DNA of 64,000 nucleotides, from assembly GCF_002210425.1 (NCBI RefSeq), contig NZ_MWQK01000001.1:372001-436000 (forward strand). Direction: 5' to 3'. The first letter of the stretch is position 1, and every line of letters begins with the position of its first letter. Below are positions 27,044 to 55,771 of the stretch, piece by piece. This DNA is from Fibrobacter sp. UWB2 (GTDB taxonomy: Bacteria > Fibrobacterota > Fibrobacteria > Fibrobacterales > Fibrobacteraceae). The translations under genes and the position numbers were made by a program. Below the pieces are notes generated by a model. It saw nothing but the letters and a program-made list of their open reading frames with translations. It was not told where the DNA came from and made no database searches.

Positions 27044-28108
27044 TCACTTCTTTTCTTCAACCGCTTTCGCTTCATTCAGGAACTTGTCAAAATCGCTCTT
27101 GAACAGTTTGTCCTGGACAACGCGGTATTTTTCGAATTCACTTTCGGCAAAAGCCTTTGCAATTTCAGCCGACACCCGACCCTTGTCTGTCAGAATCTCC
27201 ACCTCGTTGAAATCCAGGAACTTGTTGAGGCGAAGCGCCCAATCTTCCATCGTCATGGGAATCTGCCGTTTCGCCTGAAATTCCGCATAGTCAAGGTACA
27301 TTGTCACGAATCGTTCCAGTTGATGCAATTCATCCTTTGAAAGGTTGTTCTTCGCAATGCTGACATCCGACTTCTCGATTTTCCCGTCAGGCGCCTTGCG
27401 CCAGGTCGTCAAGCCCATGTGCGTTTTTTTCGCATCGGCGCGTTCCATAATGAGTTCGGCAGCCGTATGCCGGTGGATAGCCCAGTGCAACTTGTTCTGC
27501 ACATTTGCGAAAAAATCCCTTGTCGTGACGGCATCCCGGCTGTAATCGACACTCGTCGCGTAGATATCGGTAATCTTCTGGTAGAATTTCCGCTCCGACA
27601 TCCGGATTTCCCGGATTTCTTCGAGCAGGTTTTCAAAGTATTCTTCGTCAAAAATCTGGCCGTTTTCCAGGCGTTGTTTGTCGAGAACATAACCCTTTAT
27701 CGCGAAATTGCGCAAAACGTTGGTCGCCCATTGCCTGAATTGCGTTGCGCGGATAGAATTCACGCGGTATCCCACCGAAATTATCGCATCGAGATTGTAG
27801 AATTTGGTATTGTAAGTCTTGCCGTCGGCGGCAGTATGTGCAAATTTTGCACATACTGAAATTTCTTCCAACTCGTTGGTCTCAAAAACGTTCTTTAAGT
27901 GCTTGGTGACTACGGACCTATCGACATCGAACAGCCTTGAAATTCCGTCCTGCGTGAGCCACACATTTTCGTCCTGGACGCGCACTTCTATCGAATCCTG
28001 AGAATTCTGCTTGGTAAACACCAAGAAATCGATGGTACTATTGCGAATCTGCAACATTTTGCTCATTTCTACCTCAGAATTCAACACAACAGGCTCTTTT
28101 TTGTTCAT
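27044..28108 (-). CDS. rhuM: RhuM family (virulence RhuM-like) protein
   Basis: The 354-residue protein matches the RhuM family: VWLTQDGISRLFDVDRSVVTKHLKNVF at residues about 40-66 (only part of this is needed to recognise it), then YNLDAIISVGYRVNS and RATQFRQWATNVLR, which form a winged-helix-like region also found in phage anti-repressor-type proteins. The function is unknown; relatives occur on pathogenicity islands and near mobile elements. ATG 28108 has AAGGAG seven bases upstream. The reading frame continues openly far upstream, but there it is antisense to the transposase. It splits the polysaccharide locus and so was probably acquired. Confidence 0.8.
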   Translation of the reverse strand: MNKKEPVVLNSEVEMSKMLQIRNSTIDFLVFTKQNSQDSIEVRVQDENVWLTQDGISRLFDVDRSVVTKHLKNVFETNELEEISVCAKFAHTAADGKTYNTKFYNLDAIISVGYRVNSIRATQFRQWATNVLRNFAIKGYVLDKQRLENGQIFDEEYFENLLEEIREIRMSERKFYQKITDIYATSVDYSRDAVTTRDFFANVQNKLHWAIHRHTAAELIMERADAKKTHMGLTTWRKAPDGKIEKSDVSIAKNNLSKDELHQLERFVTMYLDYAEFQAKRQIPMTMEDWALRLNKFLDFNEVEILTDKGRVSAEIAKAFAESEFEKYRVVQDKLFKSDFDKFLNEAKAVEEKK

Positions 28109-28120
28109 TTTCAACTCCTT

Positions 28121-28147
28121 CCTTGCGGACAAGCAAAAACCGCAAGG
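28121..28147 (-). promoter_or_regulatory. Hairpin in the rhuM leader next to the ribosome binding site
   Basis: CCTTGCGG and CCGCAAGG (8 bp) face each other across an 11-base loop in the rhuM 5' leader, and the 3' arm abuts AAGGAG. A TATATT at about 28178-28183 on the minus strand could be the promoter. The hairpin may hide or present the ribosome binding site. Confidence 0.35.
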
Positions 28148-28189
28148 CACAAAGATACACATTTGTTCACTATTAAATATACACAAACA

Positions 28190-29340
28190 CGAGACAGTTG
28201 TCAATAGGTCCGCCCCGTTTTTTGCTGGAATTTTCTGTACCGCAGCGGTCATTACCACCGCAAGCTTCTGACTTCCGCCGGAGAGGTCGACCTGTCCGTA
28301 CCCAAGCTGCGCCTGGCCCCGTTCGAGACCGCCATCATCGAGCGCTACCGACGCAGGGAATCGTCCGTGGAGGAGTCTCTCATCGAGATGTACCTGGCGG
28401 GGGTATCCGTGCGTCGCGTGGAGGACGTCACCGAGCTCCTGTGGGGCTCTCGCGTGAGTGCTTCGACGGTGAGCAACCTGAACCAGAAGGTATACGGCAA
28501 GATCGAGGAATGGCGAAACAGGGCCATAGGCGGGGAATACCCCTACGTGTTCGTTGACGGCATCTACCTGAAGCGCAGCTGGGGCGGCGAAATGACCAGC
28601 GTCTCGGTACTTGTCGCGATAGGGGTGTCCGAAGACGGCTACCGGGAAATACTCGGCGCAAGCGAGGGTGCAAGCGAAAGTAAGGAATGCTGGCGGAACT
28701 TCCTCGTAAGTCTCAGGGAACGCGGTCTGAAGGGCGTGAGGCTGTTCACTTCGGACAAGCACCTGGGCTTCCTGGAATCGGCCTCGGAAGTGTTCCCTGA
28801 TGCGAAATGGCAACGCTGCACGGTTCATTTTTTCAGGAACCTGATGACAAAGATCCCACGCAACAAGCTTGCTTCGGCCATACCCCTGCTAAAGGCAACA
28901 TACGCCCAGGAAGACAAGGAGGCAACGCTGAAAAAGGCAGCAGATGTAGAACAGAAACTGCGTGATATGGGGCTGAAGTCTGCCGCCGAGCTTTACCACA
29001 AGGGTGTGACGGAAACGCTGACTTATCTCGACTTCCCACATGAACACTGGCGTAGCATAAGGACGAACAACATCCTTGAACGCCTGAACCGGGAGATACG
29101 CAGAAGGACGAGGGTTGTGGGCTGTTTTCCTGATGGCGAATCGGCACTGATGCTTGTATGCGCTAGATTGAGATATGTAGCGACGAAGGAATGGGGTACC
29201 AAGAGGTACCTGAACATGAAGCACCTTTACGAGATGGAAAAGGAGAACGAGCTGAAACGGGAACAGGAAAAGGACGGAAATGTAGCCTAAATCTGGTGTT
29301 GGAACAAACTATTTTTGCGAAAAACCCTTGACACTACCAC
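28190..29340 (+). mobile_element. Truncated IS256-family insertion sequence
   Basis: A 3'-complete mutator-type transposase is flanked on the right by TTGACACTACC, which read backwards (GGTAGTGTCAAGGGTTTTT) resembles IS256-family ends. On the left GTTGTCAATAGG is followed by GTTTTTTGC, a weaker match to the same end, and transposase homology starts only about 40 bases later, so the N-terminal coding part is deleted. No target-site duplication is evident. Boundaries are estimates. Confidence 0.6.
28238..29290 (+). pseudogene. IS256-family (mutator) transposase, N-terminus missing
   Basis: Homology begins at YRSGHYHRKLLTSAGEVDL (28238) and continues in one frame through YLAGVSVRRVEDVTELLWG, the catalytic Asp region FVDGIYLKRSWGG, LFTSDKHLGF, the C/H motif CTVHFFRNL and the region RTNNILERLNREIRRRT with the catalytic Glu. 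About 60-70 N-terminal residues usual for the family are absent. A TAG at 28205 blocks the frame upstream and the first ATG is 28367, giving only 307 residues. It is probably inactive, although the DDE residues seem intact. Confidence 0.75.
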
Positions 29341-29414
29341 ATCGAGTACATCGACAAGTCGGTTGACAAGTCCATGAGGGAAGTGTATGGGTTGAACCCT
29401 TCGGAAGCCCAGTA
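29332..29414 (+). pseudogene. Possible 3' remnant of a gene cut by the IS element
   Basis: Just right of the IS end a plus-strand frame reads HIEYIDKSVDKSMREVYGL then NPSEAQ and TAG. It looks like the tail of a soluble protein and has normal genome-like codons, unlike the AT-rich genes to its right. I do not recognise the family. The remaining stretch to 29561 holds short GC-rich inverted repeats (GGCGGCTCCGCCGC near 29472) and nothing else clear. Confidence 0.25.
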
Positions 29415-29561
29415 GGGCAAAAAACAGGTGGCTCCGTCAGGCCGGACTTGTGGCTCTCACTTCTCCGGACTGGCGGCTCCGCCGCTCCGGAATAATCAAA
29501 GGAAATAAAATTGTAAATGCAGGCTTATGCGTGGATGAAGTTGTAACTTAAATAAATATGG

Positions 29562-30959
29562 CTATGAAACTTTTTTTAATTTCTTAACGCAGCCAATTTT
29601 CTTTACATAAGGTGTTAAATACACAAACAAGCATCCTAGATAAATACAAAAGCCTATTTGTGGCTCAAAAAAGTTCGCACTTACTAAAAAAGCAACCACA
29701 AGAATAAATTCCTTTATAAAGAAACATGTCAACCTTTTATTTATCAATCTACCGACAATTACCTCAGAAACGATAGATCTCGTCGCGACAAAAAAAACGG
29801 CCAATAATAAGGTAAGTTTAAGATTGTTCAAAATAAAAGTTGATATTCCCACACAAATCATTGATAAAACAAGCATTGTTACATTGATAACTAGCAAATA
29901 TTTTTCTTTTCTATAGGCTTTCAAATAGTTATTGGTTAGCAAAGTAACCTTCGAAGTATAAACGATTATAGGTAAAATTAGTGCCAAATATATGAGACTC
30001 GGCTCATATTTAGGAATCCATTTTTTTAATATAAAAAAGATTGGATAATAAAAAACTAAAGCAGAGAATAACACTGGCGAGAGATAATTCCGTATTTTTA
30101 AATACATATTCGGAAGTTCCGTAACAGCCATTCTTTTCAAAGATGGAAATAATACAATACTAACAGCTGTAACAAAACTTAAAAACAACGAAGTTAAACT
30201 AAACGCAAAAGAGATCTTTCCAAAGAGTATTTCATCCCAATTCTTTTGAATGAACATTTTTGTACTACCAAGCAGAAGCATAGAAGACCACGTCGCAATG
30301 AGTAAAATAAAGCCACAGGAAATATTCTCTTTAAATTCAGAGATGAAAACCTTAAAAGGAATAAATTTTCCAAAATATAAGCCTTTATTGTATTTACAAA
30401 AAACAAAACAGGAAAAGATGCCACAGAAAATGTCTATTAAGCACAAAAAAATATAATTGTTTACAGAAAGAAGTAGGAATAAAGCGGTCAACAACATACA
30501 TATCAAATTACTTACAATTATAAAGGCCGCATATTTTTTTATTCGATTTGTTATTTGAAATATGTAAAAATTATACGTAAACAAATGTTTTGAGATAATA
30601 GAAATAGCAACTAATAATGCAATATATTTATACTCTCCCGAGAAACGGAGATAAGAAAAAACTGCAATAATAAAAGCAAAAAGTAAGTCTGCAAAGAACA
30701 ATGCCTGATATTGTGATCTTACTAAAGGCTTGTCTAGTTGATCATAATCGAGCCCTGCATAACGAAGTCCGATTCCATCCAAAATACCAAAATGCAGTAT
30801 TCCAACAAAACTTGAATATAGTATATATACTTGCCAATATGCATATTGAGTTTCATCAATAAACTTAGGTACAACTATATTCAAAAGAAAAGCTACACAA
30901 ATGGTTATCACCTGAGCAACTATTGAATACGATATATTTCTTTTTATAGAATTAGACAC
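29562..30959 (-). CDS. Wzx-like polysaccharide flippase
   Basis: The 465-residue protein has about 12-14 hydrophobic segments along its length and the N-terminal pattern of Wzx/RfbX proteins (SIKRNISYSIVAQVITICVA, VVPKFIDETQYAYWQVYIL). It would flip lipid-linked repeat units across the inner membrane. The gene is strikingly AT-rich, like its three upstream neighbours, unlike the rest of the window. It is seven bases downstream of the Wzy-like gene and is the last gene before the IS/rhuM interruption. Confidence 0.82.
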   Translation of the reverse strand: MSNSIKRNISYSIVAQVITICVAFLLNIVVPKFIDETQYAYWQVYILYSSFVGILHFGILDGIGLRYAGLDYDQLDKPLVRSQYQALFFADLLFAFIIAVFSYLRFSGEYKYIALLVAISIISKHLFTYNFYIFQITNRIKKYAAFIIVSNLICMLLTALFLLLSVNNYIFLCLIDIFCGIFSCFVFCKYNKGLYFGKFIPFKVFISEFKENISCGFILLIATWSSMLLLGSTKMFIQKNWDEILFGKISFAFSLTSLFLSFVTAVSIVLFPSLKRMAVTELPNMYLKIRNYLSPVLFSALVFYYPIFFILKKWIPKYEPSLIYLALILPIIVYTSKVTLLTNNYLKAYRKEKYLLVINVTMLVLSMICVGISTFILNNLKLTLLLAVFFVATRSIVSEVIVGRLINKRLTCFFIKEFILVVAFLVSANFFEPQIGFCIYLGCLFVYLTPYVKKIGCVKKLKKVS

Positions 30960-30966
30960 TATACAT

Positions 30967-32307
30967 TTAATCTTTTGTAGGTGTGATTAACAAAAATATT
31001 TTTGCAACAGTTAACATTATTATCAAAGTCCACAATTCACGACTGATATCACCTACGCGAACGATATCATAAATAAATGTTGCTAAAATCGTAAAAAATG
31101 TAACACTAGCAACATTTTTTGCTACAGAAAAAAAACTTTCCAAATACCTTAACATAAAGCCAAAGAAAATACTTCCGATTATTAAACCGATATATGAAAA
31201 ATTCAAATAAAAACTACCAAACAAAGTCACTGGTATTCCGCCATGAAAAGCCTCATTAAAAACCAAACGAGTTAATTCGTGATCAAATGTGGGGATTGCT
31301 AAGCCTGGGATTGGCATTGTGAAAAAGGAAAGATAATTAAAGCCATAAAAATAATCCATCCCAAATTCTGAAAAAAACTTCAAAGAAACAACGAGCATAT
31401 CAAACATACAAAACTCATTGAGTAATTCAAAAACAAATGAAAAAGAAGGGGTTCCACCAAGTAATGTAAGTCGAATTATGCCATATAACCAAACTACAAT
31501 AAAAAGAACAGCAACCATCACCCCAATCTTCTTCATATTTTTTTTTCGATTAAACTCAACACTATATAGTGGGATTATGTAACAAATTAGCAAATTAGTT
31601 ATATACTGTCTTTTACCAACGAAAGAAAAAAGATAAACACTTAATATAATTAAAAAATAAACAAACAAATTTGGTGTTTTTTTTTCATAAATAATATAAA
31701 TAATAATGACGGAAAAAAGATACACCCATACAACATCAAACATATGAATTGGAAGGCCCCTCATTATCTGAGACGCATACGAAAAAATCGATAATAAAGA
31801 CAAAAGAAAAACAAAAGTCAATATATATATTTGATTCTTTGTAAGACTCCTTGGGAAATAATCCTTGGAAATTTTTTTAAAAAAAAACGTATTGCGTATA
31901 GGAGAAAAAAGAAACGATAAGTTAAGAACACCTATTCCCAAAAGACCAATAAAAGAAGCCTTCGCAACAGGCATTTCTGAAAAGAAATACGATTGCGTGT
32001 ATGTATTGTATAACCAAAACACATAAAAACTATTTTCTTGATTTTGTGTAAAAAAAATTTGAATTGGCCTTATAAAAAAAACAAAAAACAAAAAAAAGTC
32101 TGCAATATTTATCAAGGAAAAGAAATTTCTTTTATTTATATTATTTACAATCACACATGAAAGAATAACACCATTAAAAAGAACAAGCGCCCAGCTTAAA
32201 GATAAAGATGATTCGTCATTGAACGCTATATACAAAACAGCTCCAACAAGAAGTGATAAAATCACAACAATTTTACAAACATTATCATCAACAAGTACTT
32301 GTTTCAT
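30967..32307 (-). CDS. Wzy-like O-antigen/capsule polymerase
   Basis: The 446-residue protein has about 12 membrane segments and a larger loop in the second half (FGMDYFYGFNYLSFFTMPIPG, 21 residues marking the loop; the conserved core is a GFNYL/PIPG stretch), the arrangement expected of Wzy polymerases, which have little conserved sequence. The call rests on topology and the position between glycosyltransferase and flippase. It is AT-rich. It starts 10 bases downstream of the GT2 gene. Confidence 0.75.
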   Translation of the reverse strand: MKQVLVDDNVCKIVVILSLLVGAVLYIAFNDESSLSLSWALVLFNGVILSCVIVNNINKRNFFSLINIADFFLFFVFFIRPIQIFFTQNQENSFYVFWLYNTYTQSYFFSEMPVAKASFIGLLGIGVLNLSFLFSPIRNTFFFKKISKDYFPRSLTKNQIYILTFVFLLSLLSIFSYASQIMRGLPIHMFDVVWVYLFSVIIIYIIYEKKTPNLFVYFLIILSVYLFSFVGKRQYITNLLICYIIPLYSVEFNRKKNMKKIGVMVAVLFIVVWLYGIIRLTLLGGTPSFSFVFELLNEFCMFDMLVVSLKFFSEFGMDYFYGFNYLSFFTMPIPGLAIPTFDHELTRLVFNEAFHGGIPVTLFGSFYLNFSYIGLIIGSIFFGFMLRYLESFFSVAKNVASVTFFTILATFIYDIVRVGDISRELWTLIIMLTVAKIFLLITPTKD

Positions 32308-32317
32308 AAAAATCTAT

Positions 32318-33250
32318 TTAAAATCTATTGAAAAGAATCATTATTATTAAACCAAAGTTTTCAACAAGCCCATACTGATAAATTTTTTTACTAAAAAGAA
32401 GTTTAATTTTAAACTTCAGCGATTTATCATAATTTGAGCAAAGCCATAAAAAAGAAAATTTTTCGGTAGCAATTGAATTCGAATATAATTCTAACAAATA
32501 GCAACAGCACCTACTTTTAGCTTTTGTTTTATTAAAAATATATCTTTTTATTCTATTTTTCATCAACTGTATTCTGCTACCTCCCGCCCCAACAACGTTT
32601 TTTGAATGCTGACGATAATATATCAGAGGTTTTTCAAAGAAAAAAACTTCACCATCTAAAGCATACGTCATACGGAGAACCCAACTATCATGCATTGGGA
32701 AAAATTTATACACAGATATCATCGACCAAATTTTCGCAGCCTGTTCTAGCACAACATAATTAAAAACCTGAGTACAACCTAATGAGTGTGGTGAGATAAT
32801 ATTTGCATACATGTTATTAACTACACGAATTGGGGATTTATCTTCTATTGGATTTAAATTTGAATCAACTATTTTAGCAGCAGAAAAAAACAACTGTGGC
32901 TTTTTCGATTCCGGTTTAAAAAACGAAATCGATTGTTCAAGTTTATTCTCATACCATACATCATCTTGATCACAAAAAGCATAAAAATCATACTTTGACA
33001 TTTCGGATACAGCATAATCCATTAGTCGATAAAAACTTTTTGCTGCACCAATGTTTTTTTCTGTTAATATAGTCATGCCACCATATTGATTTTTATACTT
33101 GTTCAAAATAGATACAGTTTCGTCAGAAGAACCATCATCACGAGCAAGTATATGTACATTAACATTTTTTTGAGCAAACAAACTATCTAATTGTTGCGCT
33201 AAAAAAAGTTCGCCATTATAAGTGGAAAGCATAACTAATACGGAAGCCAT
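32318..33250 (-). CDS. Family 2 glycosyltransferase
   Basis: The 310-residue enzyme opens with VLVMLSTYNGELFLAQQLDSL, the GT-A start of rhamnosyltransferase-like family 2 enzymes, followed by ARDDGSSDETV (nucleotide contact) and YAFCDQDDVWYENKL, whose DQDD supplies the metal-binding DXD. It would add one sugar to the repeat unit on the cytoplasmic face of the membrane. It is AT-rich and Lys-rich at its C-terminus. It lies 53 bases downstream of the GT4 gene. Confidence 0.85.
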   Translation of the reverse strand: MASVLVMLSTYNGELFLAQQLDSLFAQKNVNVHILARDDGSSDETVSILNKYKNQYGGMTILTEKNIGAAKSFYRLMDYAVSEMSKYDFYAFCDQDDVWYENKLEQSISFFKPESKKPQLFFSAAKIVDSNLNPIEDKSPIRVVNNMYANIISPHSLGCTQVFNYVVLEQAAKIWSMISVYKFFPMHDSWVLRMTYALDGEVFFFEKPLIYYRQHSKNVVGAGGSRIQLMKNRIKRYIFNKTKAKSRCCCYLLELYSNSIATEKFSFLWLCSNYDKSLKFKIKLLFSKKIYQYGLVENFGLIIMILFNRF

Positions 33251-33303
33251 AATAAAACCCTTAAGATTTCAACATATTTTAAACTAGAATCAAAAACGAC
33301 ATT

Positions 33304-34422
33304 TTACGTAGCCCCGTTACAACAATCTTTGTAAATTTGCTTCATCATACCACAGATTTTTTTTACATCGAAATTTTTTATTGTATTTTGATTTATCTTT
33401 CGCATTTCCGAGGAACTTTTTAACACAACATCCATTATTCCTCTGGCAAATCCATCAACATCCTGGCAGCCATATAAGAAGCCTCCTTTACCATGTTCAA
33501 TCAAGTCAACATTACCTCTAATTTTACTGCAAACAATAGGTAGTCCTACAGCCATAGCTTCCATCAATGCAACAGGAAGTCCTTCATGCAGAGACGGAAG
33601 AACCGATATATCGGCCGATTTATTCAACGCAATGACATCGGTTCGAAAACCAAGTAAATGGAAATTAGATTCAATTCTTAATGACTTCGCTAGATACCTT
33701 AAATCATTTTCTAATTTTCCTGAACCGGCAACAGCATAATGGATTTTAGGATTATCTAATTTCGCTAAAGCACGCATTACAACTTGATGATTTTTTCTTA
33801 CACTTAATTCCCCTACAGAGAGAAGCAAAATGCAATCTTCGGGAACCCCCATCGACAGTCGGACAACATTTCTGTCGCATTGTATATTCTGAATTTTAGA
33901 AAGGTCTATTCCGACTCCTGGCACATAGCAAATCTTCTTTGCAGGCATTTTATTCTGAGCCAAGGTAAAGTCTTCTTTATTGATGGTTATAAGGACATCT
34001 GTAAAATGGGCGCAAAACTTTTCGATTGGGTAATAAATAAACCAATTTTTAAGCGGGGCTCCCCTAAAAAAATGAAATCCGTGAGCTGTATAAATTACAC
34101 GAGTTCCCTGTTTACGGACTCTACGGCATGCCAATCGCACAATCATAGATGCATTGGGTGTATGTGTATGCACAATGTCGTAATGCTCTGATTCGACAAG
34201 TTGTTTAAGCATTTTGTAAGCTATAAGATTATTCTTGCTGAATGGCGAACGAGAAAAAGGAATATCGTGAACTTTACAGCCGAGTGTGTTGTAAATCTCT
34301 GGCACAGGCTTTTCGCAATTTGTCGCAATTTCTACAGAATGACCTTCGCTCAAGAGCATTTTTACATGCTCTGGAAAAAAGCCCATCGTTGCAGAAATTG
34401 TTGTGACGTACAATACTTTCAT
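33304..34422 (-). CDS. Family 4 glycosyltransferase
   Basis: The 372-residue GT-B enzyme has an N-terminal domain beginning VLYVTTISATMGFF and HYDIVHTHTPNASMI, and a C-terminal donor domain with LLSVGELSVRKNHQVVMRAL and the EX7E region HEGLPVALMEAMAVGLPIV. It is of the type that builds capsule or O-antigen repeat units. The gene begins 41 bases after the last SDR gene, marking the boundary between the acyl-making genes and the assembly genes. Confidence 0.87.
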   Translation of the reverse strand: MKVLYVTTISATMGFFPEHVKMLLSEGHSVEIATNCEKPVPEIYNTLGCKVHDIPFSRSPFSKNNLIAYKMLKQLVESEHYDIVHTHTPNASMIVRLACRRVRKQGTRVIYTAHGFHFFRGAPLKNWFIYYPIEKFCAHFTDVLITINKEDFTLAQNKMPAKKICYVPGVGIDLSKIQNIQCDRNVVRLSMGVPEDCILLLSVGELSVRKNHQVVMRALAKLDNPKIHYAVAGSGKLENDLRYLAKSLRIESNFHLLGFRTDVIALNKSADISVLPSLHEGLPVALMEAMAVGLPIVCSKIRGNVDLIEHGKGGFLYGCQDVDGFARGIMDVVLKSSSEMRKINQNTIKNFDVKKICGMMKQIYKDCCNGAT

Positions 34423-34463
34423 ATAAAATCACAATTAAAAATTTAAAAGATTCATTAGAGAAC

Positions 34464-35228
34464 TTACCTTACTGTATAGCCACCATCAACAACTAAGTTC
34501 TGTCCAGTTACCCAGCGGCTTGCATCTGATAGCAAATAAATACACGCATTAGAGATATCCGAACATTGCCCAAGTCCAAGCAAAAAGCCATCAACACGTT
34601 TTTCGTATTGTTCTGGGGTAAGCTCACTTAAAAAGTTTTGCATCATAGGAGTAAGAATCGTTCCTGGAGAAACACAATTAATGCATATATTTCTTTTGGA
34701 TAGCTCCATTGCCATGGGTCTAATTGCACTAACGACAGCCCCCTTAGAGGCTGAATATGCAGAAACCCCAATTCTGCCAATTATTGCTGTAATCGAAGCT
34801 ATCAGGACAAAGTGCGCAGCATCATTTGAAATCTTTTTGCTACTCAGCTGACGAATAAATTCAAATCCACTCAAAGCATTTGTTTTCATTACTGATTCGT
34901 AATCGTCTGTAGAAATCAATTTCAAAGGTGCTGTTTTTTCGATTCCCGCCGAATGAACGAACCCATCGATCTTTCCATTTTCTTCTACAATTTTCTTCAC
35001 CAAATCTGCAATGCCATCTGTATTCTGCAGGTCAAATACATAGTTTTTTTGCGATTCAGCTTTGTCACACAATTGAATTGTTTCATTCAAACGATCTTCA
35101 TTACGAGCAATGGCAATAACTGTTGCACCCATTTTAGTGCAGTCAATCGCTATTTGACGACCTATTCCGCTAGAGGCTCCTGTTACGACAATAGTTTTAT
35201 TTTCTAATGAAAAAGGATTAAAAGACAT
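34464..35228 (-). CDS. SDR-family reductase, 3-oxoacyl-ACP reductase-like (copy 3)
   Basis: The 254-residue classical SDR has TGASSGIGRQIA as cofactor loop, and active-site Ser/Tyr/Lys in IASITAIIG and YSASK. The N-terminus MSFNPFSLENKT is shared with the two SDRs at 36355-37856, so the three arose by duplication. FabG-like reduction of a 3-oxoacyl thioester is the likely reaction, given the KAS III gene it overlaps by one base (TGATG). The C-terminus WVTGQNLVVDGGYTVR is normal. The apparent start one codon earlier is a TTG. Confidence 0.85.
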   Translation of the reverse strand: MSFNPFSLENKTIVVTGASSGIGRQIAIDCTKMGATVIAIARNEDRLNETIQLCDKAESQKNYVFDLQNTDGIADLVKKIVEENGKIDGFVHSAGIEKTAPLKLISTDDYESVMKTNALSGFEFIRQLSSKKISNDAAHFVLIASITAIIGRIGVSAYSASKGAVVSAIRPMAMELSKRNICINCVSPGTILTPMMQNFLSELTPEQYEKRVDGFLLGLGQCSDISNACIYLLSDASRWVTGQNLVVDGGYTVR

Positions 35229-36334
35229 CAAGCCTCCAAAAAATCATTTGGGGAATTAATTATACCCTCTTCAAAAACATCATCACTTTCGATGACTGGG
35301 TAAATGTCGGATACATTGATACTTGCCGAGCAAACACCCCAAGAAAGCCCGACTCCAAATCCACACATCAAAAAATGAACAAGCCGCGATCCAGACTCTG
35401 AACCGTACTTGTCACATATTGTTAGAGGAATTGCAGGTGCGGAAGTGTTTCCGAATCTATCAAGGCATATCGGGAATTTTCCCATATCGACTTTCAATTT
35501 TTTTGCAAGCATTCCTGTAATAAACTTATTTGCCTGATGGAATGCAAAACATTCATAGTCATCAACGGTCGTTTCTGTTTTGGTCAAAAACTCCTTAATT
35601 GTCCGAGGCACCGCAGAAATTGTGAACGAGAAAACATTATCGCCTCGCATTACCGTATTATAAAGGTTACGAGTGTTTCCATCTTTCCAAACAAAATCTT
35701 CATGGGTGGCGTTCATATTACGATATCCACCCGCTGGAGCAATAATATCTTGATAACCGTTTCCATCTGTTTTTAAAACGCCCTGTATGCAAGAATTATC
35801 AGTAGATTTTTCAAGCAATACTGCAGAGCCTCCATCACCAAAAATCATAGAAACCGAAGAATCTTTCGGATTTGTCATTTTGGTCAGCGTTTCTCCAACA
35901 AGCAATAGAGCTTTATCAATGTCAGAATTCTGCATTAAAGAGCAAATTATTTGAAGTCCATACACAAAAGCAGAGCAACCTAAATTCACATCAAAAGAAA
36001 CACAGTCTTTATTTAGCCCCAATCGTTTATGTAATACACACGCTGTTGCTGGACGACGATAATCTGTAGAATGAGCTACAAATATCAGAGCTTTTACTTC
36101 CGACCTATCAACATTTTTTTCAGTTAGTATTTTCTCTGCAGATGCAAAACATAAATCTGAAGCAGTCTGATGATCTCTTGTCTTTCTGTACTGTTTAACA
36201 CCAGTAGACTCTTTAAACTTTTCAACATATTCTTTCCCAAATGATTCGGCAAAGGAATCTACATTTACGACTGTTTTGGGAACGCATGCTGCAACAGCAG
36301 ATATTTTAATATTATTGAATTTAAAAAAAGCCAT
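35228..36334 (-). CDS. KAS III-like 3-oxoacyl-ACP synthase (copy 2)
   Basis: The 368-residue FabH-like thiolase-fold enzyme keeps the full Cys-His-Asn triad: NLGCSAFVYGL, FAFHQANKFI and RFGNTSAPAIPL. FGDGGSAVLLE is normal for the family. Such enzymes condense an acyl starter (often acetyl-CoA) with malonyl-ACP, or transfer acyl groups. A location inside a polysaccharide locus argues against housekeeping lipid synthesis. ATG 36334 (MAFFKFNNIKIS) aligns with the paralogue at 38937 (MAFLSFPNVRIA) and is preferred over 36349. Confidence 0.88.
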   Translation of the reverse strand: MAFFKFNNIKISAVAACVPKTVVNVDSFAESFGKEYVEKFKESTGVKQYRKTRDHQTASDLCFASAEKILTEKNVDRSEVKALIFVAHSTDYRRPATACVLHKRLGLNKDCVSFDVNLGCSAFVYGLQIICSLMQNSDIDKALLLVGETLTKMTNPKDSSVSMIFGDGGSAVLLEKSTDNSCIQGVLKTDGNGYQDIIAPAGGYRNMNATHEDFVWKDGNTRNLYNTVMRGDNVFSFTISAVPRTIKEFLTKTETTVDDYECFAFHQANKFITGMLAKKLKVDMGKFPICLDRFGNTSAPAIPLTICDKYGSESGSRLVHFLMCGFGVGLSWGVCSASINVSDIYPVIESDDVFEEGIINSPNDFLEA

Positions 36335-36354
36335 ATACTGTATTTCCAAAAGAT

Positions 36355-37101
36355 TTATGTAAGAGAGATTCCACCATCAACAACTAGAGAAGTCCCTGTA
36401 GTCCAAGACGATGCATCGGACAACAAATAAACGATTGCGTTTGCAATTTCTTCAGGTTCGCCAAAGCGTTTCAAAGGGTATTTGGCAGCATCTGCAGCTA
36501 GTTGTTCAGCCGTTAGTATATCAGGTGAATTAAATGGCGTTTTGACCATTCCCGGATTAACGCTGTTAACACGAATTTTCTTCGGAGCAAGTTCCAGCGC
36601 ACAAAACTTCATCCAAGAATTTAGCGCAGCTTTAGAAGTTCCGTAGATACAATTCCCTTCTGTAATATCAAATACGCCACCAACAGAGGAAACGATAACG
36701 ACAGAGCCCATTTTTTTTACTTTTTTCTTTTTAACAAGTTGCCTCAAAAATTCAACTGTTGCAAAGAAATTCAAGTTAAACACCCTGTCAAAATCCTCGC
36801 GAGAGCAAAAAAGCAGCGGTTTCATCGCCCCAATGCCTGCAGAAAAAACGACACCATCAAAATCAGGAAATTCTAATATCGCATCTTCTACACTTTTTTT
36901 ATCAGTTATATCAAGTGATAAAAAGGAATGTGTATCGCCAAGCATTTCTTCTTGTGTGGCCTTGAGATGCTCTGCTCTCCGTCCAACAACATAACATGTT
37001 GCCTCCATTTGGGAACATAGACGAGAAGTCGCGCGTCCAATGCCAGAACTACCGCCAACAATGAGAATTCTTTTTCCCTGAAGTGAGAATGGATTCATCA
37101 T
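36355..37101 (-). CDS. SDR-family reductase (copy 2)
   Basis: A 248-residue classical SDR with VGGSSGIGRATS, catalytic Ser in VSSVGGVFD and YGTSK. It shares the NPFSLQGKRIL start with its two neighbours. The KKKKVKKMGSV insertion near residue 118 is Lys-rich as in copy 1. The ATGATGA junction overlaps the stop of copy 1, so coupling is likely; either of two adjacent ATGs may serve. Roles could be a second 3-oxoacyl reduction or oxidation/epimerisation of a sugar, but the gene's sister status favours acyl chemistry. Confidence 0.82.
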   Translation of the reverse strand: MMNPFSLQGKRILIVGGSSGIGRATSRLCSQMEATCYVVGRRAEHLKATQEEMLGDTHSFLSLDITDKKSVEDAILEFPDFDGVVFSAGIGAMKPLLFCSREDFDRVFNLNFFATVEFLRQLVKKKKVKKMGSVVIVSSVGGVFDITEGNCIYGTSKAALNSWMKFCALELAPKKIRVNSVNPGMVKTPFNSPDILTAEQLAADAAKYPLKRFGEPEEIANAIVYLLSDASSWTTGTSLVVDGGISLT

Positions 37102-37856
37102 TTAAGGATTACCCCACCATCAACAACTAGAGTGTGACCCGTAACCCAAGACGACGCATCAGATAACAAATAAATAATCGCATGAGCGATGTCTTCCGGC
37201 TTACCGAGCCTTCCCAATGGATACTTAGACACATTTTCTTTGAGTTGATCGTCAGAAATGGTTCCTGCAGCCAATATATTCGTGGACACAAGCCCCGGAT
37301 TGACGCTATTCCCTCTTATCCCACTTTTTGCCATTTCAAGAGCGAACCCCTTCATAAAAGCGTTAAGGCCACCCTTAGAGATTCCATACATCGTATTACC
37401 GATTGTAGAAATCATCACTCCACCAATAGATGAAGTAAACACAACCGAACTTCCCTTTGAAAGTTTTTTCTTTTTCAAAAGTCGCTGAGTTAACAAAACC
37501 GGCCCGATCATATTTACATTTAAGACTTCCGATAAATCATCATTATTGATAAATTTCACAGGAAGAGTCTTTACAATGCCAGCATTAAGGGAAACGCCTT
37601 CCAGTGCGGGCAAAGCATCTACTAAAGCGGCAATACCATTCTCATTGGACAATTCAGCAAGGATCATCTGATGATCCTGAGCAAAAGAACGATCAAGAGA
37701 ATCAAAAGTCTCTTTCAATCGAGCTTCATTACGAGCAGTAATATAAACAGTAGCACCCATTTTTGAGCACTCAATAGCCGTAGTACGCCCAATCCCAGAC
37801 GACGCACCAGTAACAAGAATCTTCTTGCCCTCTAGTGAAAATGGATTATACGACAT
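37098..37856 (-). CDS. SDR-family reductase (copy 1)
   Basis: The 252-residue SDR has VTGASSGIGRTTA, Ser in TSSIGGVMIS and YGISK. It begins MSYNPFSLEGKK like the other two copies. Within the operon it overlaps the upstream KAS III gene by 11 bases and the next SDR by four. ATG 37856 is chosen because it aligns with the paralogues; ATG 37877 would add seven residues inside the KAS III gene. Confidence 0.84.
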   Translation of the reverse strand: MSYNPFSLEGKKILVTGASSGIGRTTAIECSKMGATVYITARNEARLKETFDSLDRSFAQDHQMILAELSNENGIAALVDALPALEGVSLNAGIVKTLPVKFINNDDLSEVLNVNMIGPVLLTQRLLKKKKLSKGSSVVFTSSIGGVMISTIGNTMYGISKGGLNAFMKGFALEMAKSGIRGNSVNPGLVSTNILAAGTISDDQLKENVSKYPLGRLGKPEDIAHAIIYLLSDASSWVTGHTLVVDGGVILK

Positions 37857-38937
37857 GTACCTTATCCACCTCCTCATCTGACACTTCTACAAGGTCTGAT
37901 ATTACAAGATTTTCAGTTTCAAAATAAGTTGTTCCCCAAGAAAGACCTACACCAAATCCGCAACAAAGGAATTTTGCCGGTTTATTTTCAGCTTTATTTT
38001 TAAGTTCTGCAACGATAGTCATTGGAATACTTGCGCCATTCGTATTGCCAAACTTATACATGCTAGAAGGAACTTTCTCCATTGGCAATTTCAACTTCTT
38101 TGCAATCATGTTATTCATCTTGGTATTTGCCTGATGGAATACAAACCAATCAGCTTGCAAATAATCAAAATTATAGTGAGCAGCAAGAGATTTAACAGAC
38201 TTTGGAGCAGCGGTTATGCCAAAAGAGAATACATCCATCCCTTTCATACGAGATTGAAGCCTGTATGTTTCCTTTCCTTCAATAATTTCAGTATCAAAAC
38301 TAGATGTAGTAACAGGGTTACGCGCACCGCCTTCTGGCGTAATAATAGCATCAAAGCCACTACCATCAGTCCCAAAATGGAACATGATTTCAGAATGACC
38401 TTCACAGAATTCCACTGCAGTAACAGTACCGCAGCAGCCAAATAAAGGATTTCTACGACGACGAGGCCCTCTAAACCTTGCTTTTGCTTCACCGCACATT
38501 ACTAAAGCTTTTTTAATAGTCCCTCTGCCAAGAATCGATGCAGCGGAGCTTAAGCCATATACCCATCCAGAGCAGCCTAAAGAGATGTCTTCTGCAAAAC
38601 ATTCTTTAGATAAGCCCAAACGATCTTGTAAAATGCAAGCGGTAGCAGGCAAAATATAGTCCGGAGACTGAGAAACAAAGAATATCGCACCGACATCCTC
38701 TTTATTCCAGTTTAAATCGGCTATGAGTTTTTCTGCCGCCGCATAGCACAAATCTGACGTTGTTAAGGTGTAACTAACCCGACGTTCCTTTACACCCGTT
38801 GTTTTGACAAAGTCCTCGGGAGAATACTCCGTTGAGACTGCGTCATCTTCTGTGGGGTGCAGATTGTCGGCAATATTTTGGGGAACTCCGGCTGATATGC
38901 CGGCAATTCGAACATTCGGGAAAGATAAAAACGCCAT
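37846..38937 (-). CDS. KAS III-like 3-oxoacyl-ACP synthase (copy 1)
   Basis: The 363-residue FabH-like enzyme has the Cys-His-Asn triad in DISLGCSGWVYGL, FVFHQANTKM and KFGNTNGASIPM. Where FabH normally reads FGDG or FGDAG it has FGCCGTVTAVE, preceded by an unusual RGPRRRRNP stretch; the reading frame there is intact. This may alter the substrate tunnel or ACP docking surface. It starts right at the end of the acyl carrier protein gene (TAATG-type overlap at 38937), strongly suggesting they work together. Confidence 0.88.
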   Translation of the reverse strand: MAFLSFPNVRIAGISAGVPQNIADNLHPTEDDAVSTEYSPEDFVKTTGVKERRVSYTLTTSDLCYAAAEKLIADLNWNKEDVGAIFFVSQSPDYILPATACILQDRLGLSKECFAEDISLGCSGWVYGLSSAASILGRGTIKKALVMCGEAKARFRGPRRRRNPLFGCCGTVTAVEFCEGHSEIMFHFGTDGSGFDAIITPEGGARNPVTTSSFDTEIIEGKETYRLQSRMKGMDVFSFGITAAPKSVKSLAAHYNFDYLQADWFVFHQANTKMNNMIAKKLKLPMEKVPSSMYKFGNTNGASIPMTIVAELKNKAENKPAKFLCCGFGVGLSWGTTYFETENLVISDLVEVSDEEVDKVHVV

Positions 38938-39167
38938 TACTTTTTGCTCTTTACAGTGTTAAACAAATCTTCAATAGTTGCAGAGTTTTCAATATCAGCG
39001 CCCTTGAGCGTAATATCGTATTCTTCATCGACCATTGCAATGATGTTGAGAGCCATTAAAGAAGACCATTCGTCCAAGTCATGGAACTTGGTATCAGCCT
39101 TAAATTCGGCAGCATCAGTTTCTTCGAACTGCTCGGCAAAATGTTCAATGAATTCGTTGATATCCAT
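38937..39167 (-). CDS. Acyl carrier protein of the polysaccharide locus
   Basis: The 76-residue acidic protein (MDINEFIEHFAEQFEET...) has the ACP fold pattern and DEWSSLMALNII, in which the second Ser is the likely 4'-phosphopantetheine site, replacing the usual DSL with a SSL form. It is not the fatty-acid ACP, which normally has GADSLDTVELVM. It is the first of six consecutive acyl-making genes and would hold the growing acyl chain between the KAS III and SDR enzymes. AGGAGATAAAC precedes the ATG. Confidence 0.88.
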   Translation of the reverse strand: MDINEFIEHFAEQFEETDAAEFKADTKFHDLDEWSSLMALNIIAMVDEEYDITLKGADIENSATIEDLFNTVKSKK

Positions 39168-39196
39168 GTTTATCTCCTATGTTTAGGGGTTTATTG

Positions 39197-39850
39197 TTAA
39201 ATTTTTTCACGCTTGGCAGGGACGCCAATGTAAAGGCTATTTTCCTTTGGTTTTGTCATTAAAACACTGCCAGCAGCAAGTCTTACGCCATTCTTTATTT
39301 TCAACAATTGAAGTACAATGGAGTTGACTCCGAAAAAGTTGCAATCTCCCATTGTTACTTCACCAGATATACGAACAGCGGGCATAAAGGAATTGTAATC
39401 ACCAATTTTAACATCGTGTCCAAGAACGACAGATCCGTTAAAAACATTGAAATTACCAATGGTCACATCACAAGAAAAAGCACAACCACCCTGAATTATG
39501 TTTCCCTTGCCTATAGTAAACGACTCCTTATCGGAGTAATAGGTATTAGGGTAAATCAGGTTCGGGAATTCAACATTCGCATTAGTAATCTTTTCGACTA
39601 CTTTTTTGACTGTATTAGGGTTCCCAATGGCCACAATCACATTGATTTTACCTTGCCAAGCGTTCAATTCTTGCATGCCACCAAGGATAGGGCCAAAATG
39701 TGAGACCATCTTGCCTTTTTCCACGCCATCGTCAAAAAAACCGAGCAGATTCCATGTTGGTTCTTTTTCGTTAATCTTGTTGATGGAACATGCTACTTCG
39801 CGACCAAAGCCGCCTGCACCGTAAATTGCAATATTCTTAAGTTCAGCCAT
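39197..39850 (-). CDS. PglD/NeuD-like sugar N-acyltransferase
   Basis: The 217-residue protein has the PglD-type N-terminal Rossmann-like domain (IAIYGAGGFGREVACSI) and a left-handed beta-helix with hexapeptide repeats. His in SVVLGHDVKIGDYN is the catalytic base position. PglD acetylates the 4-amino group of UDP-4-amino-sugars using acetyl-CoA; here an ACP gene follows after 29 bases, so an acyl-ACP donor is possible. It overlaps the PglC-like gene by 8 bases. Confidence 0.85.
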   Translation of the reverse strand: MAELKNIAIYGAGGFGREVACSINKINEKEPTWNLLGFFDDGVEKGKMVSHFGPILGGMQELNAWQGKINVIVAIGNPNTVKKVVEKITNANVEFPNLIYPNTYYSDKESFTIGKGNIIQGGCAFSCDVTIGNFNVFNGSVVLGHDVKIGDYNSFMPAVRISGEVTMGDCNFFGVNSIVLQLLKIKNGVRLAAGSVLMTKPKENSLYIGVPAKREKI

Positions 39851-40478
39851 TTGCAACCTTCTGTTCTGGTTCCGGAGTTCCCATAAATGCGGTCATGGTA
39901 GCTTCACCATTGGCTCCGCTGATTCCTTCACGTTTTACAGCCTTTTTGAGCGTGGTGAGGATAATCTTTACATCGCCGAAGAAGGTCACGTTGTTCACGT
40001 ATTCTACATCGTACTTAAATTTCTGTTCCCAGGTAATGGCGTTGCGACCGTTTACCTGCGCAAGGCCGCTGAGCCCCGGGCGCACATCATGGCGATGTTT
40101 TTGCTCGGAATTGTAACGCGGCAGGTATTCCACCAAAAGCGGTCTCGGCCCGATTACAGCCATGTCACCCTTGAGGATGTTGAATAGCTCCGGAAGTTCG
40201 TCGAGGCTTGTGCTGCGTAGGAACTTGCCGTAGGCATTCAGGCGAACATCGTCTGGGAGTAGGTTGCCGTTGGCGTCCTTTTCGTTCGTCATGGTGCGGA
40301 ACTTGATGAGCTTGAAGATTTTTTCGTTAAGGCCCGGGCGCGGCTGCGTAAAGAACGGGTTGCCCTTCATCTTGATGGCGCCGAGAATCGTGAGTACGAC
40401 GAGGACCGGGCTCAGGCAGATGATGGCAGCCAAAGCACAGAAGAAGTCGAGAGGGCGCTTGAAAAACCGGGCGTACAT
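39843..40478 (-). CDS. PglC-like initiating sugar-phosphate transferase
   Basis: The 211-residue monotopic phosphoglycosyl transferase has one N-terminal re-entrant hydrophobic segment (FFCALAAIICLSPVLVVLTI) and the family motifs KLIKFRTM, RSTSLDELPEL with the catalytic Asp-Glu, GPRPLL and RPGLSGLAQVNGR. It starts repeat-unit assembly by moving a sugar-1-phosphate onto undecaprenyl phosphate. ATG 40478 overlaps the TAA of the aminotransferase gene (TAATG). Confidence 0.93.
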   Translation of the reverse strand: MYARFFKRPLDFFCALAAIICLSPVLVVLTILGAIKMKGNPFFTQPRPGLNEKIFKLIKFRTMTNEKDANGNLLPDDVRLNAYGKFLRSTSLDELPELFNILKGDMAVIGPRPLLVEYLPRYNSEQKHRHDVRPGLSGLAQVNGRNAITWEQKFKYDVEYVNNVTFFGDVKIILTTLKKAVKREGISGANGEATMTAFMGTPEPEQKVANG

Positions 40479-51966: not shown

Positions 51967-52020
51967 ATATATTCCATTATAGAACGTGTGGGTTTAGTTT
52001 TTTCAAGGGATGAGATAATA

Positions 52021-54318
52021 ATGAAAAAACTGTTGGTTTGGTCACTCGCTATTGCGGGTACATGTTTTTATGGGTGTGCAGACGACAATTCGGCTGCATT
52101 TGATTCTATTGCGCCTGAAATCGGCGAAGAAGAGTCTTCTACGGAAGAGTCTTCTTCATCTGTCGAGTCTGAAGAATCTTCTTCATCTGCAAAACAAGAA
52201 GCGCCCGCTTCGGGCAGCGCGGATTCCAATGCGAATTCTAGCGCGGACAAAGCCGCAAATTCGAGTGCCGACACGAGCGCAGACTCCAACACAGGCGATT
52301 CCGAAAGTTCCTCCTCGCCCGCTCCGCTTTCGAGCTCTGCGGTAGCACCGGCAAGCAGTTCGACACCTGCCCAAATTCCGACACTTTCATCGAGCGCTAT
52401 CGCTATTTCGAGCTCCACCATCTCGACAAGTTTTTCTTCGTCTAGCGGGCTTGCTGAATACGATGACAACCACAAGGCAAAAGCCACATTCCTCCCGAAA
52501 GCGGGCTTCTACAGAAGTTTAACGATTGAACCGCTCACACCGCAAAAAGGTGGTGAAATCCGTTGCACATTTGACGGATCTTTCCCGACGGCAACATCCG
52601 AACAAATCACAGTGGCAAAGCAAATCACCGAGAACTCGGTTGTACGTTGTTCTGAATTTGTAAACGGAGTCGCCGCAGATACGACAACGCAAACGTATTT
52701 CATCAATGAAAGTGTTTCGATGCCGGTGGTAGCCCTCACGGTAAATCACCACGATATGTTCGATTCTACCGATGGTCTCTACGCTACCGGAAACCTCACT
52801 GGCGGTGGCATGGGTGGCGGCATGTGGGACTTTGGCGGCGGCGCAAACGTTACCGACAACAACAACCCGAAATGCACCGAGCCTTGCAAGCAGGCGAATT
52901 TTTGGAAAGATACAGAGCTCCCCGTCCATGTGGAATACTTCGAAAAAGGAAGTTCCACCACAGAAAAGACTTGGGAAATCGATGCAGGCATTTCGATTAT
53001 CGGTAATTACAGCCGTTACAAGCCCAAGAAGAGCGTTGCCATCAAGATGGACAACGACAATTACGGCGACAAGACTCTCAAATATTCTTTGTTCAAAACG
53101 CGCCCCGAAGCCAAGAAATTCAAGAGCTTCAACTTGCGCAACAACGGAAACCGTTTCTGGACGGACTATGTTGGCGATGCCATGATGACAGCACTCATGG
53201 AAGGCACAGAAGTCGATTACCAGCGCAGCCGCCAGGTCGTCGTGTTCTACAACGGCGAATACTTCGGCATCCACGATATGCGCGAACGCTTGAACAGGAG
53301 CTATGTCGAAACGAATTACGGCATTGATTCCAAGTCCATCAACATGATTAAAATCACCGGTTCCAGCTACGAAGCTAGCGGTACAAACGGCGCATCGACG
53401 GAAGATTACAAACAACTTGTAAATAGCATTTCTAGCGCCAATTTTGCAGGCGAAAACAACGCACAGTACGAACAGATTAAGAGCAAAATCAACGTCAACA
53501 GTTTTGCGCAATACATGTTCGCCGAAATGTACTACCACAATGGCGACTGGCCGAACAACAACGTGCGCGCCTGGGGCGGTAACGGCCATCCGTTCAAGTT
53601 TGTCGCATTCGATACCGACCACGGCTTTGGATTCACGCCGGGCATCAGCGGCTTTGACGAAGAAAATGAAAACATGTTCACCTGGGTGCTTGGCGCAAAG
53701 CAGACGAGCAATCAGGGCGGAAACAATGGTGGCATGTGGGGCGGCTTCGGCGGAGGCTTTGGAGGCGGTTTTGGCGGAACTTCTGTTGACAGCAGGGCTC
53801 CGGGCGGAATGCTCAAGAAACTCCTCGAAAATCCGGACTTCAAGCGACTCTTCATCAACAACGCTTGCATTCTCCTCAACAGCTACTTGACCTACGAAAA
53901 GGTACAGAGCACGGTCCAGTCTATGATGGCAACGATTCCGTCTTCGGAACAGCAGCGCGACGAACAGCGTTGGCCGCGCAACCAGAGTAACTTTAAATGG
54001 GATCCGACCGGTAACACGCTTATCGCTTTCGCCAAGAATCGCGGCGAAAAGCTCAAACAAGAAATGGTCGAACGCTTTGACCTCGAAAACGAAGTCTCTG
54101 TGACCATCGGCGCAAGCGGAAACGGTTCTGTTCAGGTTGACGGCATGAAGCTCCCAAGCAACAACTACCAGTGCAAATTCTTCACGAACAACGAATTGCA
54201 ATTGACGGCAGTCGCTAGCGCAGGCGCGGTATTCACGGGATGGTCCGACGGTTCGACCGAAAACCCGCACAAGGTTACGCCGACAGCGGGTATGACCATC
54301 ACGGCGCAGTTCAGATAA
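52021..54318 (+). CDS. CotH-family surface lipoprotein with Ser-rich linker
   Basis: The 765-residue protein starts with a lipoprotein-type signal (MKKLLVWSLAIAG...FYGC). Residues about 30-145 are a Ser/Ala/Glu-rich linker. A chitobiase C-terminal-like domain (QKGGEIRCTFDGSFPTATS) follows, then a CotH kinase-like domain (about 235-690; VFYNGEYFGIHDMRERLN, FKFVAFDTDHGFGF) with two Gly/Met-rich loops (GGGMGGGMWDFGGG; GGFGGGFGGGFGG). The end (about 690-765) is an InlB-type repeat (FTGWSDGSTENPHKV). CotH proteins phosphorylate protein partners in spore coats; here it may modify surface proteins or help adhesion. ATG 52021 follows AAGGGATGAG. Confidence 0.85.
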   Translation: MKKLLVWSLAIAGTCFYGCADDNSAAFDSIAPEIGEEESSTEESSSSVESEESSSSAKQEAPASGSADSNANSSADKAANSSADTSADSNTGDSESSSSPAPLSSSAVAPASSSTPAQIPTLSSSAIAISSSTISTSFSSSSGLAEYDDNHKAKATFLPKAGFYRSLTIEPLTPQKGGEIRCTFDGSFPTATSEQITVAKQITENSVVRCSEFVNGVAADTTTQTYFINESVSMPVVALTVNHHDMFDSTDGLYATGNLTGGGMGGGMWDFGGGANVTDNNNPKCTEPCKQANFWKDTELPVHVEYFEKGSSTTEKTWEIDAGISIIGNYSRYKPKKSVAIKMDNDNYGDKTLKYSLFKTRPEAKKFKSFNLRNNGNRFWTDYVGDAMMTALMEGTEVDYQRSRQVVVFYNGEYFGIHDMRERLNRSYVETNYGIDSKSINMIKITGSSYEASGTNGASTEDYKQLVNSISSANFAGENNAQYEQIKSKINVNSFAQYMFAEMYYHNGDWPNNNVRAWGGNGHPFKFVAFDTDHGFGFTPGISGFDEENENMFTWVLGAKQTSNQGGNNGGMWGGFGGGFGGGFGGTSVDSRAPGGMLKKLLENPDFKRLFINNACILLNSYLTYEKVQSTVQSMMATIPSSEQQRDEQRWPRNQSNFKWDPTGNTLIAFAKNRGEKLKQEMVERFDLENEVSVTIGASGNGSVQVDGMKLPSNNYQCKFFTNNELQLTAVASAGAVFTGWSDGSTENPHKVTPTAGMTITAQFR

Positions 54319-55209: not shown

Positions 55210-55233
55210 TATGCTGAAATGCGCGGGATGCTA

Positions 55234-55427
55234 GGGTAGCCAGATGGGCTGCGCTCTGTCATTTCAGCCTCATCACTGTCATTCCCGCCTCCGAGCGGGA
55301 ATCTCCCTTGAAATCGGGGCAGCCAGATTGCTCTCGCCCCTATTCGGCTACGCCGATGCTTACGCATCGCGGGGTAGCCAGATTGGCTGCGCTGGCTTCC
55401 CGATTGAGCATCGGGGTAGCCAGATTG
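55234..55427 (+). repeat. Four partial copies of the tRNA-Pro 3' end
   Basis: GGGTAGCCAGAT (55234-55245), TCGGGGCAGCCAGATT (55314-55329), GGGGTAGCCAGATT (55371-55384) and TCGGGGTAGCCAGATT (55411-55426) repeat in direct orientation the 16 bases that form the 3' end of the tRNA-Pro gene at 55611-55626. Between and after the copies lie small hairpins (CGGCTACGCCG, GATGC...GCATC, TTGAGCTACGCTCAA, GAACTGAC...GTCAGTTC near 55545). The region 55210-55570 has no credible protein gene. Confidence 0.7.
55277..55303 (+). repeat. Dispersed palindromic repeat
   Basis: TGTCATTCCCGC-CTCCGA-GCGGGAATC is a full unit of the TTCCCGC type, in the repeat-rich region before tRNA-Pro. Confidence 0.7.
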
Positions 55428-55572
55428 CCAAAACACTCATTTCATTTCGTGTTTTGCCCTCCGGGCTTGCTTGAGCTACGCTCAAGTCAAGGCTTAAAAC
55501 CGGCTGTGTTCGCTACGCTCTCGCCGGTTTTAATCGAACTGACTTCGTCAGTTCTCACTTGGCTCCGTTGAT

Positions 55573-55611
55573 ATATGCAAAACGACCCCACAAGGGGGTC
55601 GTTTTGCATAT
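55573..55611 (-). terminator. Hairpin terminator directly after tRNA-Pro
   Basis: ATATGCAAAACGACCCC and GGGGTCGTTTTGCATAT form a perfect 17-bp stem with a five-base loop. It begins at the last base of the tRNA gene and most likely ends its transcription. Confidence 0.75.
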
Positions 55612-55684
55612 CGGGGTAGCCAGATTCGAACTGACGACATTCTGCTCCCAAAGCAGACGCTCTACCAGGCTGAGCTACACCCCG
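55611..55684 (-). tRNA. tRNA-Pro (anticodon UGG)
   Basis: The minus-strand sequence folds as a cloverleaf: acceptor arm CGGGGTG with TACCCCG, D arm GTAGCTCAGCCTGGTAGAGC (D-loop GG present), anticodon loop CTTTGGGA with TGG, and T arm with GTTCGAATC. The discriminator base is A and CCA is not encoded. A TATATT at 55700-55695 could be its -10. Its 3' end is repeated downstream (see 55234-55427). Confidence 0.93.
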
Positions 55685-55771
55685 AAGTGCTCCAAATATA
55701 GCAAAGATTAGTGCGGAATTTGCTTGAAAACGCTAAAAATTTTCATCTATAACAAATTTTTTCATAAAAAA

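Follow-up and report, generated by a model that had tools for sequence, protein, structure and literature searches.

So far, the RtT repeats have counted as an oddity of tRNA-Tyr in E. coli, and the rrnB T1-T2 segment of the same species has been copied into many cloning vectors; we found no paper in the open-licence literature that links the two. The 178-bp tandem repeats of tyrT-tyrV (RF00391, rttR) carry an inverted end copy (GCGGGGAAGGAT) followed by GA, a hairpin similar to the one termed H1 below, with the end AAGGTTCGA, and a T-loop insert with a c(GCA)g hairpin and CCCGAAGGGC, after which comes ATCCTTCCCCCACCACCA. All of these features have counterparts in the Fibrobacter array described here. 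PMC4986893, citing Bosl and Kersten (1991), presents the E. coli RtT as an RNA that affects the stringent response, so that an RNA role is the main rival to the explanation developed below.

The array lies in a window of 64 kb from Fibrobacter sp. UWB2, where copies of a tRNA 3' end are arranged in series behind the gene for tRNA-Pro(TGG). On balance, we read it as a set of RtT-like units, in which a small non-coding element of about 60–110 nt (hairpins A to D) sits at the fixed point TTCGA^ATC of a truncated and partly inverted duplicate of a stable-RNA 3' end.

Anatomy of the array at tRNA-Pro(TGG)

The tRNA-Pro(TGG) gene, the origin of the copied 3' end, occupies positions 55610..55685 (ARAGORN; Rfam RF00005, 63.7 bits). 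It is encoded, as are all features of the array, on the minus strand, and the copies therefore lie downstream of it; the whole array is found beyond the terminator of the tRNA, a hairpin with a perfect 17-bp stem (55573..55611) that marks the boundary between tRNA and unit. Read on the plus strand, the gene is closed by TCGGGGTAGCCAGATT at 55611–55626. The initial annotation had described four direct copies of this end, one of them perfect, and all four are present in the same orientation, with starts at 55411, 55369, 55314, and 55231. A search of the 64 kb for TCGGGGTAGCCAGATT with up to three mismatches returned five matches against 0.37 expected. Across the 3.53-Mb genome, the exact 14-mer GGGGTAGCCAGATT is confined to the tRNA and two of the array copies, and allowing one mismatch adds only three further places, none of them exact.

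On the tRNA strand, the order of elements is tRNA, terminator, T', H1 (GAACTGAC-GAA-GTCAGTTCGA), a four-hairpin insert, and AATCTGGCTACCCCGA. T' (55545..55574) is an inverted partial copy of the tRNA 3' end, 30 nt long and 73% complementary to 55608–55637, which overlaps the 5' arm of H1. The H1 feature itself (55534..55554) comprises the hairpin GAACTGAC-GAA-GTCAGTTC and a following GA. Its 3' arm plus TTCGA corresponds to the 5' strand of the tRNA T-stem and the start of the T-loop, so that the 5' half of the T-stem with TTCGA is copied at 55534–55543; in the homologues listed, this segment is likewise cognate. The insert, supported by covariation in 150 homologues, spans 108 nt (55426..55533) and folds into hairpins A (55494–55533), B (55470–55486), C (55456–55466), and D (55430–55455). 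Directly after it, AATCTGGCTACCCCGA supplies the remainder of the T-arm and the acceptor, and the perfect 3'-end copy (55411..55426), which has one ambiguous base in common with the insert, ends the complete unit. Taking the insert out restores GTCAGTTCGAATCTGGCTACCCCGA, with one junction base ambiguous, which places the insert exactly in the T-loop, at positions 58/59 (TTCGA^ATC), of a truncated tRNA copy.

Three smaller modules follow the complete unit, each closed by a copy of the tRNA end. Module 1 (55385..55410) leads to a copy with one mismatch (55369..55384), and module 2 (55330..55368), which contains the hairpins GATGCGTAAGCATC and CGGCGTAGCCG, leads to another with one mismatch (55314..55329). 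Module 3 (55247..55313) contains the palindrome GATTCCCGCTCGGAGGCGGGAATGAC and ends in the degenerate copy CTAGGGTAGCCAGATG (55231..55246; four mismatches). The alternative raised in the initial annotation, a hairpin-rich repeat element that had copied the tRNA end, is borne out.

Rfam searches of the window and its relatives gave nothing but tRNA above threshold. Outside the array, the window lacks c(GNA)g hairpins with stems of at least 7 bp, and we therefore rejected a general abundance of such hairpins in the genome. The palindrome GATTCCCGC...GCGGGAATGAC within module 3 (55281–55302) resembles the dispersed palindromes of other bacteria, and similar ones follow tRNA-Leu(GAG) genes (C2:228820, 229128). 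Elsewhere in the window, positions 28000–40000 have a GC content of 0.37, compared with about 0.51 over most of the remainder, and are possibly acquired DNA; positions 51988–54318 encode a CotH-kinase-domain protein with a long serine-rich stretch.

Cognate units across Fibrobacter and interrupted tRNA genes

DNA searches detected related sequences in 79 of 80 congeneric genomes. The covariance model R1 located units in 78 of these 80; a genome has at most 13 of them, and a tandem array at most six. Copy number varies widely between genomes, and at the loci inspected a unit carries between one and five end copies, with varying modules. A tRNA gene on the same strand lies upstream of 129 of 150 R1 matches, the first unit mostly 52–68 nt away, and the units usually stand behind the terminator of the stable-RNA gene. 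The tRNAs concerned are Pro-CGG (65 matches), Ser-CGA (44), Pro-TGG (14), Gly-GCC (4), and nominally Lys (2), the latter two being interrupted and decayed tRNA-Pro copies. Most of the remaining matches fall at contig edges or in interrupted tRNA genes. The termini of the units spell the letters of the cognate tRNA. The same units are present in other genera of the Fibrobacteraceae, one of them at tRNA-Ala(GGC), and the named genome records that contain them are Fibrobacter species, F. succinogenes among them.

Copies of the T-stem follow seven tRNAs of the window genome at +56 to +78. Units at tRNA-Gly(GCC) (G000:C6:225749–226633; L030, L031) recur in tandem about every 330 bp, with the terminator as part of each period. 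At G000:C1:10022–10095 (L071), tRNA-Arg(ACG) is followed by a perfect 28-nt 3'-end copy and a second terminator; the interior is different there, and the T-loop insert is absent. Three tRNA-Lys(CTT) and three tRNA-Glu(TTC) genes are arranged in tandem at G000:C1:74226–74747 and C7:5858–6382, with periods of 224 and 226 bp.

As tRNA letters form part of R1, we built a second model, R2, from the insert only. It yielded 55 matches in 12 genomes. All six in the window genome lie in tRNA arrays, and the unfamiliar places inspected in the other genomes all proved to contain tRNA-Gly or tRNA-Pro, with the exception of one match at a contig end. The initial annotation had named identical repeats throughout the genome, at sites unrelated to tRNA genes or integrases, as the finding that would refute its proposal; the genome-wide search and the insert-only model were both negative in this respect. 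A tRNA-independent, genome-wide repeat was accordingly rejected, as the R2 matches fall in tRNA arrays and the core 14-mer is not dispersed.

Several genomes also contain full-length tRNA copies that carry the insert at the same point of the T-loop, just upstream of the intact gene, and the interrupted tRNA body is sometimes identical to that gene. Such interrupted genes include Pro-TGG (L132, about 1224–1405, and L067), Pro-CGG (L131), and Ser-CGA (L187, L189), decayed examples (L107, L115, L191), and further cases interrupted at position 58/59 (L303, L307, L321). Since these full-length genes are interrupted at the same spot, they pin down the insertion point. They are also relevant to the annotation of tRNA genes.

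Change of the arrays and maintenance of their stems

Comparison with the closest relative (G045) revealed how an array can differ between genomes: the complete unit is nearly identical in the two, and the window array has an extra block of modules between two end copies. Together with positions 55372–55392, the degenerate copy at 55231..55246 forms a 21–22-bp direct repeat flanking the block that G045 lacks. As this difference demonstrates, the 3'-end copies act as exchange points. The nearest relative of a unit is found at the same tRNA in another genome for 143 of 150 units, with a mean identity of 0.87 versus 0.52 to units at other tRNAs of the same genome; recent hopping between tRNAs within a genome was rejected because the units are locus-specific. 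In genomes with the minor allele of tRNA-Ser, the unit ends track the local variant at 10 of 10 positions, and they track the Pro-TGG variant less completely. Locus-specific units whose ends follow the local allele are explained by recombination and gene conversion between end copies, and not by integrases. We infer that, through these processes, units increase in number, become smaller, and keep their match to the tRNA.

The initial annotation had favored a scar of successive integrase-driven integration and excision at the tRNA. Two features are in keeping with this proposal: the copies span the T-loop to the end of the tRNA, as many att cores do, and modules are exchanged between 3'-end copies. 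However, in eight well-assembled genomes the Pro and Ser arrays have no tyrosine recombinase closer than about 27 kb, neither the integrase neighborhood nor the list of window ORFs revealed an integrase gene or island content beside or between the copies, and no island separates the copies. Nor did the unit match viral contigs (searched with two patterns) or phages and plasmids (blastn). A single hairpin insert that is common to many tRNAs and to a 5S rRNA flank, in an array kept in nearly every Fibrobacter species, further renders integrase scars very improbable. The unit ends, GTTCGAY, do not fit the integron attC core, GTTRRRY.

The stems of the unit evolve in a compensatory manner. Among the 150 homologues, 31 of 33 stem pairs have changed on both sides, and the covariation score is 0.537 compared with 0.151 for shuffled data (0 of 500 shuffles). 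G-T pairs make up 7 of 1059 in unit stems versus 48 of 1233 in tRNA terminators found by a procedure similar to that used for the units (P = 1.4e-7); for the GT:AC ratio alone, the same comparison gives P = 0.08. H1 shows some wobble excess (27 GT, 7 AC). The triloops have the form c(GNA)g in 104 of 153 cases, whereas terminators prefer longer loops, such as GNRA. Loops of the c(GNA)g type are unusually stable in single-stranded DNA. The stems covary strongly, but the scarcity of G-T pairs and these loops suggest maintenance at the DNA level, which we favor, given also that template switching is able both to create and to mend stems (PMC8794818). Near-identical unit pairs do carry single-sided changes, which leaves room for ordinary compensatory selection. 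By GC skew, the tRNA strand looks leading at the array, which would make the hairpin strand the template of lagging-strand synthesis; the evidence from this placement is weak.

If the units were instead genes for structured small RNAs of the RtT type, co-transcribed with the tRNA or expressed behind it, the tRNA-like end might guide processing or let the RNA act in tRNA metabolism. The covariation and the position of the loops on the sense strand agree with such a role, as does the fact that R1, trained on Fibrobacter, finds the E. coli unit; loops on the sense strand fit RNA as well as single-stranded DNA. The E. coli RtT RNA is, moreover, described in PMC4986893 as released from the tyrT transcript. 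Yet in Fibrobacter a terminator separates tRNA and unit, G-T pairs are nearly absent, triloops take the place of GNRA loops, and copy number differs widely among genomes, and we consider both the RNA genes and the functions proposed for their tRNA-like ends unlikely.

Perfect stems with few wobble pairs and the inverted copies of the tRNA end would also be expected of functionless palindromes, made and corrected by template switching during replication at stable-RNA genes, a process able to create and mend stems (PMC8794818). Against this, a recognizable insert (YWAAA..., CCCGNAGGGC) occurs at unrelated tRNAs across phyla, a recurrence that random template switching would not give, and units are kept in 78 of 80 species; we regard this explanation as improbable.

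Under the preferred reading, that of RtT-like units carrying an inserted element, a unit would arise when the element enters a duplicated 3' end of a tRNA (or 5S rRNA). Its stems would then be kept perfect as DNA, through single-stranded hairpins, template-switch repair, or selection for DNA hairpins, and not as RNA. The hairpin cluster would accordingly be a mobile or once-mobile element. We saw no insertion event in action, nor a transposase or integrase linked to the units. This raises the question of what introduces the hairpin cluster at the T-loop when a tRNA end is duplicated, and what then preserves its match to the gene.

Relation to RtT, rrnB T1-T2, and REP elements

Both RtT and the Fibrobacter units duplicate the adjacent tRNA's 3' end from the T-loop onward, and both contain an outer inverted end copy, H1, and a CCCGNAGGG hairpin in the same order. 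R1, although trained on Fibrobacter only, matches the unit in the tyrT-tyrV spacer at 27.5 bits. Conversely, RF00391 scores Fibrobacter units at 21–23 bits (best 22.8, with the window unit not among the matches listed), below its gathering threshold of 45, which leaves them outside the formal RtT family despite the common anatomy. They also differ from RtT in that they occur at Pro, Ser, and Gly tRNAs, stand behind a terminator, and have longer A and D stems.

With a broader model, R3, we detected units in 35 of 369 Gammaproteobacteria at E up to 1e-3, and in 11 of 398 Pseudomonadota at E up to 1e-4. In a check of 30 loci, 23 lie 51–135 nt behind a tRNA and several others are interrupted tRNA genes; a further 15 of 15 Pseudomonadota loci lie after a tRNA. 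The Pseudomonadota units are found at Gln, Tyr, Ser, Arg, Glu, Lys, Trp, and Pro tRNAs, and at the 23 loci the ends have a median of 0 mismatches to the cognate tRNA versus 6 to non-cognate ones. The H1 and T' matches are weaker in Gammaproteobacteria. In a first pattern scan, six of the eight matches outside Fibrobacter had no tRNA and are probably due to chance.

A similarity search extended the comparison into the region behind 5S rRNA and reached rrnB T1-T2. The K-12 unit (L332, 335–415; about 4171834–4171914) has the same four hairpins, CAAATCCGCCGGGAGCGGATTTG, GTTGCGAAGCAAC, CCCGGAGGG, and GGCGGGCAGGACGCCCGCC, after the first terminator, and then AACTGCCAGGCATCAAAT, which repeats 18 nt of the 5S end (at most 10 in shuffles). 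R3, which was not trained on rrnB, matches this unit at 22 bits. Unlike in Fibrobacter, the copied end is that of 5S rRNA instead of a tRNA, and no clear inverted copy is visible by eye. At rrnH, which lacks the unit, the 5S gene runs straight into CAAATTAAGCAG, the sequence that comes after the unit in rrnB; this is a unit-free arrangement. Units of the rrnB type are present in 3915 of 5426 E. coli genomes, at 1 to 9 places each.

REP/BIME elements resemble the units in being short intergenic hairpins with strand-specific loops. In contrast to them, the units stay beside their cognate stable-RNA genes and are not dispersed (one contig-end match apart). A RAYT/Y1 transposase as the driver was rejected: we found no Y1 transposase in the window genome, and it is absent from 53 of 80 genomes of the genus.

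We found no description of such an element class in open-licence papers. Tentatively, the data may be read as a cross-phylum group of tiny DNA hairpin elements with a single insertion point in the 3' part of stable-RNA genes, be it the T-loop of a tRNA or the 3' end of 5S rRNA, which adopt the end of their target, with RtT and rrnB T1-T2 as unrecognized members. If true, the group would represent a minimal mobile element, or a companion of stable RNAs, of a new kind. Because RtT and rrnB T1-T2 have their anatomy in common with arrays found at many tRNAs of two phyla, what seemed a local peculiarity becomes a class whose target is defined, and allows testable predictions of where the next copies lie and which letters their ends carry. 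The Fibrobacter array is, in our view, a new and informative RtT-type variant, and RtT now looks to be part of a wider class at stable-RNA 3' ends, in which the tyrT repeats and the rrnB region, two unexplained oddities of E. coli, appear to belong together.
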